Below are positions 6,606-62,596 of a stretch of 64,000 bases of DNA, piece by piece (position 1 is the first letter of the stretch; every line of letters starts with the position of its first letter). Source of the DNA: Allostellaceae bacterium (GTDB lineage Bacteria; Pseudomonadota; Alphaproteobacteria; ATCC43930; CGMCC-115725); assembly GCA_025451725.1 (NCBI GenBank), contig JANWJX010000023.1, positions 1-64,000 of the forward strand, given 5' to 3'. Below the pieces are notes generated by a model. It was not told the origin of the DNA, did no database searches, and was given only the letters and a program-made list of their open reading frames with translations. A program made the position numbers and the translations under genes.

Positions 6606-7835
6606 CTATTTCTCCGGTTCCACAAGCGCCGCGTAGACCATATTCCGGATCTTCGATTCCAGCCGGAACAACTGCATCGACGCCTGGACCATCAGCAACG
6701 CGAAGAAATCGCGTTTTGGATCGCACCAGAACATCGTGCCGGCCGCACCCGACCAGTGGAAATTGCCTGCCGAGCCGGCATGCACCGCCTCGCCCTGAGT
6801 GCGGCGCACGGCGAAGCCGAGGCCGAACCCGTAGCCGGGACCGGGGATGTACCAGGTCGGGCCCGGCGGGATGTCGTGGCCGAGATGGTCCGAGGTCATG
6901 TAGGCGACCGTCTCCGGGCTCAGCACCCGCTTGCCCTCGAGCGCGCCGCCATTGAGCATCATCTGGAGGAAGCGCGCGTAGTCGATTGTGGTCGATTGCA
7001 TGCCCTGCCCGCCCATTTGCGCCTTGAGCGCCTGGCGCGGATCGTAGGGCGGCGCGCCGCCGACGAGATGATCGGGTGGTGCCGGCTCGGCGACGCGCGC
7101 GTGCTTGGCCTTGTCGGCGACATAGAACGTCGTCTCGCTCATGCCGAGCGGTCCGAGAATCTGTTCCTGTTCCCACTCATAGAGCGACTTACCCGACACC
7201 ACTTCGACGACGCGGCCGAGCACGTCGGTCGAATGGCTGTAGTTCCAGCCCGCGCCCGGCTGGAACGCGAGAGGCAGGGTCGCGAGCTTCCCGACGAACT
7301 CGGCGTTGGTGAAATCGGCGCCGAAGAAATTGGCGTCGCGATAGAGCTTGCCGATCGGCGTGTCGAAGAAGCCATACGTCAAACCGGATGTGTGACGCAG
7401 CAAATCCTGCACCGTCATCGGCCGACCGCACGGCACCAAGTCCATCGTCGGCGGCAGCGCCGCCATCATCGGCGGACGGAGCACGCCGACCTTGGCCTCG
7501 GCGAATTGCGGAATGTAGGCGGCAACCGGGCTTTCAAGCAGGAGCCTGCCCTGCTCCGCCAGGGTCATCGCCGCGACCGAAGTGATCGGCTTCGACATCG
7601 AATAGATGCGGAAGATCGCGTCCTTGGTCATCGGCGACTTGCTCGCCTTGTCGCGATAGCCGACGGATTCGAAATACGCGATCTTGCCGTGCCGCGCGAT
7701 CAGCATGTTGGCGCCCGGCAATTGTCCGGTCTCGACCTCCTGCCGCAGCGATTCGGTCAGGCGCGCGAGACGATCGCGCGAAAAGCCGACTTGTTCGGGA
7801 TTGCCTTCCTCGAGGCCGCGATTGGCGTGGGACAT
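6606..7835 (-). CDS. serine hydrolase of the class C beta-lactamase / EstB family
   Basis: A 409-residue protein. The S-x-x-K motif is SMSK at about residues 79-82 (nucleophile Ser79, base Lys82), preceded by AIFRIY and followed by PITSVAAM. A Tyr-Ser motif is in the WNYSHSTDVLG segment. No clear signal peptide is present, so it is probably cytoplasmic. Family members include carboxylesterases, D-aminopeptidases and transesterases; true beta-lactamase activity is unlikely without an export signal. ATG at 7835 is preceded by ACGGAGGAAG, a strong ribosome binding site. Confidence 0.85.
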   Translation of the reverse strand: MSHANRGLEEGNPEQVGFSRDRLARLTESLRQEVETGQLPGANMLIARHGKIAYFESVGYRDKASKSPMTKDAIFRIYSMSKPITSVAAMTLAEQGRLLLESPVAAYIPQFAEAKVGVLRPPMMAALPPTMDLVPCGRPMTVQDLLRHTSGLTYGFFDTPIGKLYRDANFFGADFTNAEFVGKLATLPLAFQPGAGWNYSHSTDVLGRVVEVVSGKSLYEWEQEQILGPLGMSETTFYVADKAKHARVAEPAPPDHLVGGAPPYDPRQALKAQMGGQGMQSTTIDYARFLQMMLNGGALEGKRVLSPETVAYMTSDHLGHDIPPGPTWYIPGPGYGFGLGFAVRRTQGEAVHAGSAGNFHWSGAAGTMFWCDPKRDFFALLMVQASMQLFRLESKIRNMVYAALVEPEK

Positions 7836-41654: not shown

Positions 41655-42891
41655 AGCGCAGAGCTTCCACAGGATCGAGCCGCGCCGCGCGCCAGGATGG
41701 ATAGAGCGTCGCAAGGAACGACAGCGCGAACGCCATGGCGACCACCGTCACGACGTCGGAGGCATAGACCTGCGCGGGGATGCGGGTGAAGAAATAGATT
41801 TCGGCCGAGAACAAATTGACGCCGACAATGTCCTGCACGAACTGGCGGATCGACTCGATGTGCAGCGCGAACTCGGTGCCGATGACGAAGCCGAGGAACG
41901 TGCCGACCACGCCGATCGACGCGCCCGACAGGATGAAGATGCGCAGGATCATGCCGCGCGTCGCGCCCATGGTGCGCAGGATGGCGATGTCGTGGCCCTT
42001 GTCCTTCACCATCATGATCATGCCGGAAATGATGTTGAACGCCGCCACCAGGATGATCAGCGTCAGGATTAGGAACATTACGTTGCGTTCGATCTCGATG
42101 GCGTTGATGTAGCTTGCCTGGGTCTGGCGCCAGTCGACAATGCGCGCAGAGGGGCCGATGAGCTCGCCGAGCGCCGCGCGCACCGCATCGAGATTGTCGG
42201 GGTCTTTGGCAAAAATCTCGACGCTGGTGACACCCGTGCCGGTATTGAAGAACAGTTGCGCCGCCGCGAGCGGCATCATGATCATGTTATTGTCGTACTG
42301 ATACATGCCGAGATCGAACACCCCGACGATTTTGTAGGTCTTGATCCGTGGCATGGTGCCGAAGGCGGTGGCGTTGCCGTTGGGCGACACGATCGTGATA
42401 TTGCCGCCGGCCGCGACGCCGAGACGCTGAGCGAGACGCACGCCGACAATGACGCCGTCGTCCTTGAACTGCGCCAACGCGGCGGGGTCGACCGCGCCGG
42501 CAAGCAAGGGCTGGGCCGCGATGTCGTCGGCGCGCATGCCGCGCACGAGCACGCCGGTCGAGCCGCTATTGGTGCTGGCGAGCACCTGGCCCTGGACCTG
42601 CGGCCGGGCGGCGACGACGCCGGGAATGGCGCGGATGCGCTTGTCGAGCGCATCGAAATCGGCGAGCGGACCTTTCGCCGACAGCACCGACAAATGCCCC
42701 TCGATGCCAAGAATGTGGTTCACGAACTCGATGCGGAACCCGTTCATCACGGACATGACGATGATCAGCGTCGCGACGCCCAGCATGATGCCGAGCAGCG
42801 AAAAGATCGCGATCACCGAAACGAAACCTTCGGCGCGCCGCGCCCGCAGATAACGGAACGCGACCATGCGCTCGAACTGGCCGAAGATCAT
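41647..42891 (-). CDS. lolC: lipoprotein-releasing system permease LolC/LolE
   Basis: A 414-residue four-helix permease. Helix 1 follows [19 protein letters not shown], the conserved LolCE start. A periplasmic domain of about 230 residues follows, then three helices including [17 protein letters not shown], the cytoplasmic coupling loop. The single gene in place of separate lolC and lolE implies a homodimeric transporter, common in alphaproteobacteria. The ATG at 42889-42891 overlaps the proS stop (ATGA) and the end overlaps lolD. Confidence 0.94.
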
Positions 42892-44207
42892 CGCGCCGCC
42901 TTGATGCGGTTGAGCGCCGCCTCGGCGGTCATCTCCTCGCGCTGGCCGGTTTTTCGGTCCTTCACTTCGACCACGCCTTTTTGCAGGCCGCGCGGCCCGA
43001 CCACGATCTGCCACGGCAGACCGATCAGATCCATCGCGGCGAACTTGGCGCCGGCGGATTCCGCGCGGTCGTCGTAGAGCGTGTCGACGCCTGCCTTGTT
43101 CAAGGTCGTGTAGAGCGCCTCGCATGCTTCGGTGCAGGCGGCGTCGCCGGCGCGCAGATTGATGAGCCCCGCGCCGAACGGCGCCACGCTCGCGGGCCAG
43201 ACGATACCGGCGTCATCATGGCTTGCCTCGATGATGGCGCCGACGAGGCGCGACACGCCGATGCCGTAACAGCCCATTTCCGGTACGACCGGTTCGCCGT
43301 TCGGGCCGGCTACCGACACGTTCATCGCCTTGGTGTATTTGTTGCCGAGGAAGAACACCTGCCCCACTTCGATGCCGCGCGCCGAGAGCAACCGGTCCGG
43401 CGGCACGGGACAGTTCGCCGCGTCGTGTTTCTCGTCGGTCGCGGCATAGAGGCTGGTCCATTGCCTGAAAAACGGTTCGAGATCGTCGTCATAGTCGACC
43501 TCGGTCGACAGCACGTCGGACTCAAGCCACGCCTTGTCGCAATAGACCTGGGACTCGCCGGTATCGGCGAGGACGATGAATTCGTGGCTCAAATCGCCGC
43601 CGATCGGGCCGGTGTGGGCGCGCATCGGCACGGTCTTGAGGCCCATGCGTGCGAAGGTCCGCAGATAGGCGAGGAACATCTTGTTGTAGGTTTTGCGCGC
43701 CGCCGCGAGATCGAGATCGAAGGAATAGGCATCCTTCATCAGAAATTCGCGCCCGCGCATCACGCCGAAGCGCGGCCGCACCTCGTCCCGGAATTTCCAC
43801 TGGATGTGATAGAGGTTCTTCGGCAGGTCGCGGTACGATTTGATGTTCTGCCGGAAAATATCGGTGATCAGCTCTTCGTTGGTCGGGCCATAGAGCATGT
43901 CCCGCTCATGCCGGTCGCGGATGCGCAGCATCTCCTCGCCGTAATCGTCATAGCGCCCGCTTTCGCGCCATAGCTCGGCCGGCTGGACAGTCGGCATCAG
44001 CAATTCCTGGGCGCCGGCCGCGTCCTGCTCTGCCCGGACGATAGTTTCGATATTGCGCAACACTCGCAGGCCTAGCGGTAGCCAGGAATAAATGCCGGCG
44101 CTGGACTGCCGGATCATGCCGGCGCGCAGCATCAACCGGTGCGAGACGATTTGCGCTTCCGCCGGATTTTCGCGCAGAAGCGGCAAAAAATAGGTGGAGA
44201 GCCGCAT
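42888..44207 (-). CDS. proS: prolyl-tRNA synthetase, short type
   Basis: A 439-residue class II synthetase lacking the large editing insertion of the 570-residue E. coli enzyme, as is usual for alphaproteobacteria. Motif 2 is in [22 protein letters not shown]. Motif 3 is in [16 protein letters not shown]. The anticodon-binding domain follows (PFGAGLINL to the end). It charges tRNA-Pro; misacylated Ala-tRNA-Pro would need a free-standing editing protein elsewhere. ATG at 44207 begins the conserved MRLSTYFLP. It is the first gene of proS-lolC-lolD. Confidence 0.95.
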
Positions 44208-44366
44208 GAAACCTCGATTAACGGGGCAGGCTGCGACTGTAGAAAACGCGTCGTCCCCTGTCCATCGCACTAATTTCTGACAATTCTGTCATCTGACGGC
44301 AGAAATAAGCGACAAGAAGTGAGGCGGATATTCATAATTTTCGTGACGGCGGCACAAACCTGTGGG

Positions 44367-44372
44367 TATATT
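44367..44372 (+). promoter_or_regulatory. possible -10 box of the candidate small RNA
   Basis: TATATT lies 7-12 bp before the proposed start at about 44379, with GTGACG at 44343-44348 as a partial -35 (4 of 6) at 18-bp spacing. The -35 is weak. Confidence 0.35.
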
Positions 44373-44378
44373 TTGTCC

Positions 44379-44513
44379 ACTGGAAAGCTCGCGATCTGCG
44401 GAGCGTCCAGGGCCCAAGTTTGGGGAGGATCGAGCGGCTTTTGTGGGGGACCGCTCGACGGAAGAGGTTCGAGATTGGCGAGAGGCAAGGCCCGAATGGT
44501 CTTGCCTCTTTGC
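44379..44513 (+). ncRNA. candidate structured small RNA, family not recognised
   Basis: The 337-bp gap between proS and tag has no convincing protein gene but holds three consecutive hairpins on the plus strand. Hairpin 1 pairs CTGGA (44380-44384) with TCCAG (44406-44410) and GCTC (44387-44390) with GAGC (44401-44404). Hairpin 2 pairs TCGAGCGG (44430-44437) with CCGCTCGA (44451-44458). Hairpin 3 pairs AGAGGCAAG (44481-44489) with CTTGCCTCT (44501-44509) and is followed by TTGCTTT. A possible promoter lies just upstream. The transcript would be about 135 nt. It is unlike 4.5S and tmRNA; I cannot place it in a named family. Confidence 0.5.
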
Positions 44514-44516
44514 TTT
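44481..44516 (+). terminator. terminator-like hairpin of the candidate small RNA
   Basis: A perfect 9-bp stem AGAGGCAAG/CTTGCCTCT with an 11-base loop, followed by TTGCTTT on the plus strand. The T-run is interrupted. It points away from proS and toward the 3' end of tag, so besides ending the small RNA it could insulate the two genes. Confidence 0.55.
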
Positions 44517-44544
44517 AAGACCAAACGTTAAATAACGGAAATTA

Positions 44545-45090
44545 TTATTTCTTTTTGTGCGACCAAGCCGGTTTCAGCTTGGCGATCTTGCCATAGACCG
44601 GGCAATTCGGCTCGTGCGCGCCCGACAGATAGCCGAGGCTCATCAGAAACTCGTTCACGATCTCGCCGCCGGTAAAGCGGAAGTTTTGTTTGAACAACTT
44701 GACCCAACCATCTTTAGGTAAAGGATGATTTTTGTCGAGCCAAGCGGCGAAACTGCCATGTTCGGCGCGAATCGTTTGAAGCCGCCGGGCGTTGTCGATC
44801 GCCGCCTCGACCTTGAGCCGGTTGCGGATGATGCCCGCGTTGCCGAGCAGCCGCTTCACGTCCTTGGCCTTGTAGCCGGCGACTCGGTCGATATCGAACC
44901 CGTCGAAGGCCTCGAGAAACGCCTCTCGCTTCTTGAGGATGGTGAGCCAGGACAACCCGGCCTGGTTGATCTCAAGCACCAGCCGCTCGAACAGTACGGC
45001 GTCGTCCCGCGACGGAAAGCCGTACTCGGTGTCGTGGTACGGGCCATGGAATTCGTGTCCCGGCGCCATCGCGCAATAGGCCGCGCTCAT
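44545..45090 (-). CDS. tag: DNA-3-methyladenine glycosylase I
   Basis: A 181-residue Tag-type glycosylase that removes 3-methyladenine from alkylated DNA. The zinc ligands are likely Cys6 and a His near 15-19 at the N-terminus together with His and Cys of GAHEPNCPVY at the C-terminus. The YHDTEYG motif replaces the more usual YHDTEWG. The helix-hairpin core GLSWLTILKKREAFLEAFDGFD is typical. Its ATG overlaps the DUF1467 stop (ATGA), so it is a late gene of the rnj operon. The C-terminus is Lys-rich. Confidence 0.93.
   Translation of the reverse strand: MSAAYCAMAPGHEFHGPYHDTEYGFPSRDDAVLFERLVLEINQAGLSWLTILKKREAFLEAFDGFDIDRVAGYKAKDVKRLLGNAGIIRNRLKVEAAIDNARRLQTIRAEHGSFAAWLDKNHPLPKDGWVKLFKQNFRFTGGEIVNEFLMSLGYLSGAHEPNCPVYGKIAKLKPAWSHKKK

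Positions 45091-62519: not shown

Positions 62520-62596
<77 letters not shown>

Follow-up and report, generated by a model that had tools for sequence, protein, structure and literature searches.

We asked what is encoded in the gap between proS and tag on contig JANWJX010000023.1 of an Allostellaceae bacterium, in a window (the whole stretch of DNA analyzed) of 64,000 nucleotides. The original prediction placed a small RNA there, on the plus strand and against two flanking genes on the minus strand; both genes, the TATATT box, and the chain of hairpins with its terminal stem were all found as it had described them (Table 1). We computed the folding energy of positions 44379–44513 (plus strand) and compared it with those of 200 dinucleotide-shuffled sequences. 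The actual value was –64.2 kcal/mol, compared with –50.1 ± 3.8 kcal/mol for the shuffled sequences (z = –3.7), and none of these was as good as the real sequence, in agreement with the strong folding that had been claimed. The –35-like element GTGACG lies 18 nt upstream of TATATT. A strict scan for T-runs called no terminator at the 3΄ end of the small RNA, owing to an interruption of the U-tract; in homologues, TTATTTTTT occupies the position of this tail. Overlapping open reading frames of up to 84 amino acids were dismissed as protein-coding genes because 1–2 nt indels occur across the region in the alignment of congeners, which also upholds the earlier view that the gap holds no convincing protein.

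Table 1. Predicted features of the proS–tag region of the window
Feature	Position	Strand	Remarks
Predicted small RNA transcript (candidate alphaR8 sponge)	44379..44518	+	5΄ end predicted from the position of the –10 box
–35-like element GTGACG	44343..44348	+	correctly spaced –10 element downstream
–10 element TATATT	44367..44372	+	invariant in the genus
Hairpin 1	44380..44410	+	from the fold; CTGG...CCAG ends common to the genus
alphaR8-pairing core GGCCCAAGTTTGGGGAGGA	44411..44429	+	predicted weak stem-loop (CCC/GGG); small stem-loop at 44413–44424
Hairpin 2, stem TCGAGCGG/CCGCTCGA, G-rich loop TTTTGTGGGGGA	44430..44458	+	stem maintained among congeners
Rho-independent terminator, stem GAGGCAAG/CTTGCCTC, tail TTTGCTTT	44482..44516	+	from the fold and compensatory changes; stem spans 44482–44508, followed by the tail
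proS (prolyl-tRNA synthetase)	42888..44207	–	divergent neighbour, conserved beside the small RNA
tag (DNA-3-methyladenine glycosylase I)	44545..45087	–	convergent neighbour; start codon approximate

The absence of a match to a named family was likewise borne out by a covariance search with Rfam, in which no family reached the gathering score on either strand of the small RNA region, and nothing meaningful was found at E values up to 10, a match to SOX2OT being attributable to chance. A tRNA gene at positions 62523–62596 (minus strand) was the sole gathering-level Rfam match in the 64 kb window.

A plain DNA search of 61 relatives detected the element in four genomes, namely that of the window, those of two congeners and, through a 28-nt match, that of a further family member, which would suggest an element nearly restricted to the genus. 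This view was overturned by a core pattern and a covariance model. The core pattern GGGCCCAAGTTTGGGGAGGA, with up to three mismatches, was found in 37 of the 39 family genomes, usually one to four times in each, and in more than 117 stretches of named genomes. The idea that these represent a multi-copy family of paralogous small RNAs sharing a 20-mer was considered first and then dropped, because Rfam identified the bulk of the copies as alphaR8 genes read backwards. The majority of core matches are alphaR8/MmgR small RNA genes (RF00519) on the opposite strand, with scores of 45–79 bits at the tested loci that have the bulk form of the core, and a minority are homologues of the small RNA of the window.

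For these homologues, we built a covariance model (R1) from 17 sequences, including that of the window, which as one of the 17 was matched at positions 44380–44518 (84 bits, E = 9e-20). Strong R1 matches together with weaker members placed a homologue in 33 of the 39 family genomes and in all 11 genera. The homologues have a terminator of the form GGCAAG...CTTGCC followed by a T-run, with a promoter on the plus strand, and nearly all adjoin proS and/or tag in a constant orientation, divergent from proS and convergent with tag. Strong conservation of the gene is confined to its promoter, terminator and core. Between genera, the core and the terminator are the only alignable parts, and the three hairpins are unequally conserved, the middle one being variable. 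The proposal that compensatory changes should mark the stems held for the terminator, whose consensus stem shows double-sided changes across the 17 members. Within the genus alignment, the stem of hairpin 2 is kept in one congener (G003) through a G-U pair and a compensatory change. The position, strand, promoter, terminator and core are thus all conserved across relatives, and on this comparative evidence we conclude that the predicted element between proS and tag is a small RNA gene, as originally proposed.

Matches to R1 extend to dozens of other alphaproteobacterial families, and approximately 35 further genomes of the class outside the family reach at least 39 bits. The search fetched 26 class-level loci, 22 of which have either proS or tag within 1.5 kb; in the other four, neither gene was detected within the fetched 1.5 kb and the RNA features were still kept. 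A phylum-wide draw of 299 genomes (E values up to 0.001) yielded just two weak R1 matches outside the class, of at most 33 bits. Weak R1 matches of up to approximately 33 bits, which occur in a large number of genomes, are for the most part antisense to alphaR8 and were left out of the count of sponges; the genomes of family f2 gave weak matches only. Of 65 members, 57 have a promoter upstream of the core, consisting of a (G/A)TGAC –35 element and a correctly spaced –10 element resembling TAxxxT, compared with 3.9% of shuffled upstream regions. Across families, most members have (G/A)TGACG, not TTGACA, as their –35 hexamer, 17–18 nt from the –10 element; this preference could point to a shared regulator or sigma factor.

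The original prediction had missed the complementarity of the core to alphaR8/MmgR small RNAs, and this complementarity points to the likely function of the gene. The core is antisense to the alphaR8 element UUUCCUCCCU and to the AAACUUGGGCC that follows it, that is, to the anti-Shine-Dalgarno region of alphaR8 small RNAs (Rfam RF00519, MmgR/SisA) and the 5΄ arm of their terminator. Genes for alphaR8 were detected above the cut-off in 38 of the 39 family genomes; the genome of the window (G000, 61% complete) contains two (C2:11849-11921 and C16:1-58), and a congener (G001) contains two clear copies and a weaker sub-threshold match. We compared the longest continuous helix with that of shuffled sequences, because the energy of the full-length duplex was uninformative against shuffles. 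With each alphaR8 of its own genome, the core is predicted to form 19 continuous pairs, one of them G-U (–40.1 kcal/mol), whereas the shuffled sponges averaged 10 and never exceeded 17.

We further compared the core sequences of the sponge and alphaR8 in 60 genomes, and found that the two change together. Within a single genus (g6), two-sided compensatory changes were observed: sponge GTTCAGG occurs with alphaR8 CCTGAAC in G008, G030 and G036, and sponge GTTTAGG (or GTTTGGG) with CCTAAAC in G017, G022, G032 and G034. GTCTAGG is combined with CCTAGAC in genus g4 and in a single genus of family f17, families f17 and f136 are each divided into AAG/CTT and GAG/CTC pairs, and genus g8 has CCTAAG/CTTAGG in one genome and CCCAAG/CTTGGG in the other. 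The total of own-genome internal mismatches was 9, compared with a mean of 19.3 and a minimum of 13 in 3,000 within-family permutations, a comparison that is not fully corrected for the tree. Of 24 distinct one-sided changes in the sponge, 20 fall at A/C sites and 17 of these keep a G-U pair, a bias that is what selection for pairing would predict. A few members (G070, G345, G148, G418, G136 and G005) contain internal mismatches. Several other families retain an alphaR8 score of 31–46 bits on the strand opposite to the sponge. Apart from one locus over the cut-off (L240), these scores are sub-threshold (31–40 bits; loci with 32–46 bits are L235, L239, L243, L244, L247, L251, L254, L259, L260 and L240), and in these families an appearance of covariation could result from shared ancestry or concerted evolution. 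The window and its genus are free of this caveat, as RF00519 gave no match there on either strand, either for the window at the gathering score or at E values up to 10, or for the three loci of the genus (L001–L003) at E values up to 1. Taken together, these comparisons strongly support pairing between the putative sponge and alphaR8.

The same opposite-strand scores raise the possibility that the functional gene is an inverted and diverged alphaR8 on the minus strand, of which the plus-strand signal is a mere mirror image. They do indicate that an alphaR8 gene was probably the starting point of the locus, or overlaps it. However, the window and its genus lack any such match, no U-tract follows the arm on the minus strand, and the conserved promoter and terminator T-runs sit on the plus strand; we therefore regard this explanation as very unlikely. 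Scarcely more probable is the view that the GGGGAGG of the core mimics a Shine-Dalgarno sequence and serves as a general decoy of many small RNAs bearing the anti-Shine-Dalgarno CCUCC, with no specificity for alphaR8. The core does contain GGAGGA, hairpin 2 presents a second G-rich loop, and the overlap of the core with a Shine-Dalgarno-like GGAGG string means that other CCUCC-bearing small RNAs could also be bound. However, the 19 nt of complementarity extend far beyond a Shine-Dalgarno sequence into the terminator arm of alphaR8, and the half of the core outside that motif covaries with alphaR8.

The least probable of the alternatives, which we consider highly improbable, is that there is no independent RNA and that the hairpins are incidental to a cis feature, such as a 5΄-divergent region or an untranslated region of tag or proS. 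The placement between two minus-strand genes would allow this. However, the promoter is directed away from proS, the core and terminator are kept across families and the intervening sequence is not, and the four class-level loci that carry neither gene within the fetched 1.5 kb keep the RNA features. The gene, its orientation, its complementarity to alphaR8 and the covariation are supported by these comparisons, and we consider it probable that the product is a trans-acting, CrfA-like sponge of alphaR8.

CrfA (CCNA_R0093) of Caulobacter crescentus is an Hfq-dependent sponge of four alphaR8 small RNAs, SisA–D, which was shown experimentally to act via its G/A-rich second stem-loop, and which, when carbon is limiting in starvation, lifts the repression of genes for transporters (Vogt et al. 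2025, PMC12559287). It is the sole precedent, and the sole antagonist of alphaR8, found in our literature search. The transcription start site of crfA is at position 3,781,500 on the minus strand (PMC5988900), and proS is not mentioned in the main text of the CrfA paper (PMC12559287). Judged by the published description of CrfA, its parts recur in the candidate RNA of the window, namely a hairpin, a weak CCC/GGG stem-loop containing the core, more hairpins and a terminator, and the genome of the window contains an hfq gene, as the host of CrfA contains Hfq; it is for this reason that we interpret the RNA as a sponge. Both are free-standing genes, that of the window with an in silico promoter and terminator; both have a G/A-rich stem-loop that is complementary to the UUUCCUCCCU core of alphaR8; and both have several alphaR8 siblings in their genome, of which two were found in the incomplete genome of the window. 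The sites protected in CrfA and SisA span 13–15 nt (CrfA G49–C63, SisA G33–C45), whereas the core of the window spans 19 nt and enters the terminator arm of alphaR8, and CrfA has been demonstrated by experiment, whereas the RNA of the window is known from sequence comparison alone, in which natural compensatory changes take the place of a mutational demonstration of pairing. Relative to the alphaR8/MmgR/SisA–D family itself (RF00519, 'suhB' in Rfam), the sponge core is the antisense, encoded on the opposite strand and with a putatively opposite role. QrrX of Vibrio is a free-standing small RNA that opposes the multi-copy sibling Qrr small RNAs (PMC12559287); by its description, it resembles the predicted sponge in antagonizing a family of siblings, and differs in lineage and targets.

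Since the sponge and alphaR8 sequences change together, the small RNA most likely soaks up and switches off alphaR8 regulators. In the mechanism that we propose, its own sigma-70-type promoter would drive transcription from approximately position 44379 to the terminator at approximately 44516, and the exposed G/A-rich stem-loop of the core would pair over approximately 19 nt with the single-stranded UUUCCUCCCU and the terminator 5΄ arm of alphaR8, with Hfq as the likely matchmaker. Such pairing would mask the alphaR8 sequence used on the ribosome-binding sites of target mRNAs and would probably be followed by decay of alphaR8, so that repression of the alphaR8 regulon would be relieved. Links of the alphaR8 small RNAs to carbon storage and to the uptake of nutrients have been described, and by analogy with CrfA we infer a role of the sponge in carbon or nutrient shifts.

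The origin of the sponge may be reflected in several other families, in which its locus still looks like an entire alphaR8 gene in inverted form: an A-run and a hairpin complementary to the alphaR8 terminator are followed by the core and then by a CGCC...GGCG hairpin. This resemblance suggests an inverted-alphaR8 origin, or an overlapping pair of sense and antisense genes, in the families with the opposite-strand signal. The probable source of the sponge locus is thus the opposite strand of a copy of alphaR8, and in the genus of the window all likeness to alphaR8 except the pairing core appears to have been lost. The small RNA most likely belongs to a broad and apparently undescribed family at the proS–tag locus; the kind of sponge is known from one example, and the family and its breadth appear to be new. 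We lean, with some reserve, toward a vertically inherited sponge of this origin, kept at proS–tag across much of Alphaproteobacteria and co-evolved reciprocally with its targets. If this is true, sponge control of the alphaR8 regulon would be an ancient and general layer and not a speciality of Caulobacter. As alphaR8 small RNAs are present in nearly all alphaproteobacteria (PMC12559287), the sponge, if it is one, would make their antagonist widespread, and its fixed locus would permit annotation from sequence alone. The reciprocal changes in sponge and target would also represent ready-made natural compensatory mutants for the study of RNA sponge–target co-evolution.

In addition, two congeners contain a genus-specific variant of alphaR8 with a C-rich hairpin loop (G003:C259:7586-7655, L195; and G002:C58 near 7605-7626, L031), which was not found in the genome of the window or in G001. 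The core TCCTCCCCAAAC of this variant would form Watson-Crick pairs with the genus-specific sponge sequence GTTTGGGG, and the GGGGG in the loop of hairpin 2 of the sponge could also contact the C-rich loop of the variant.
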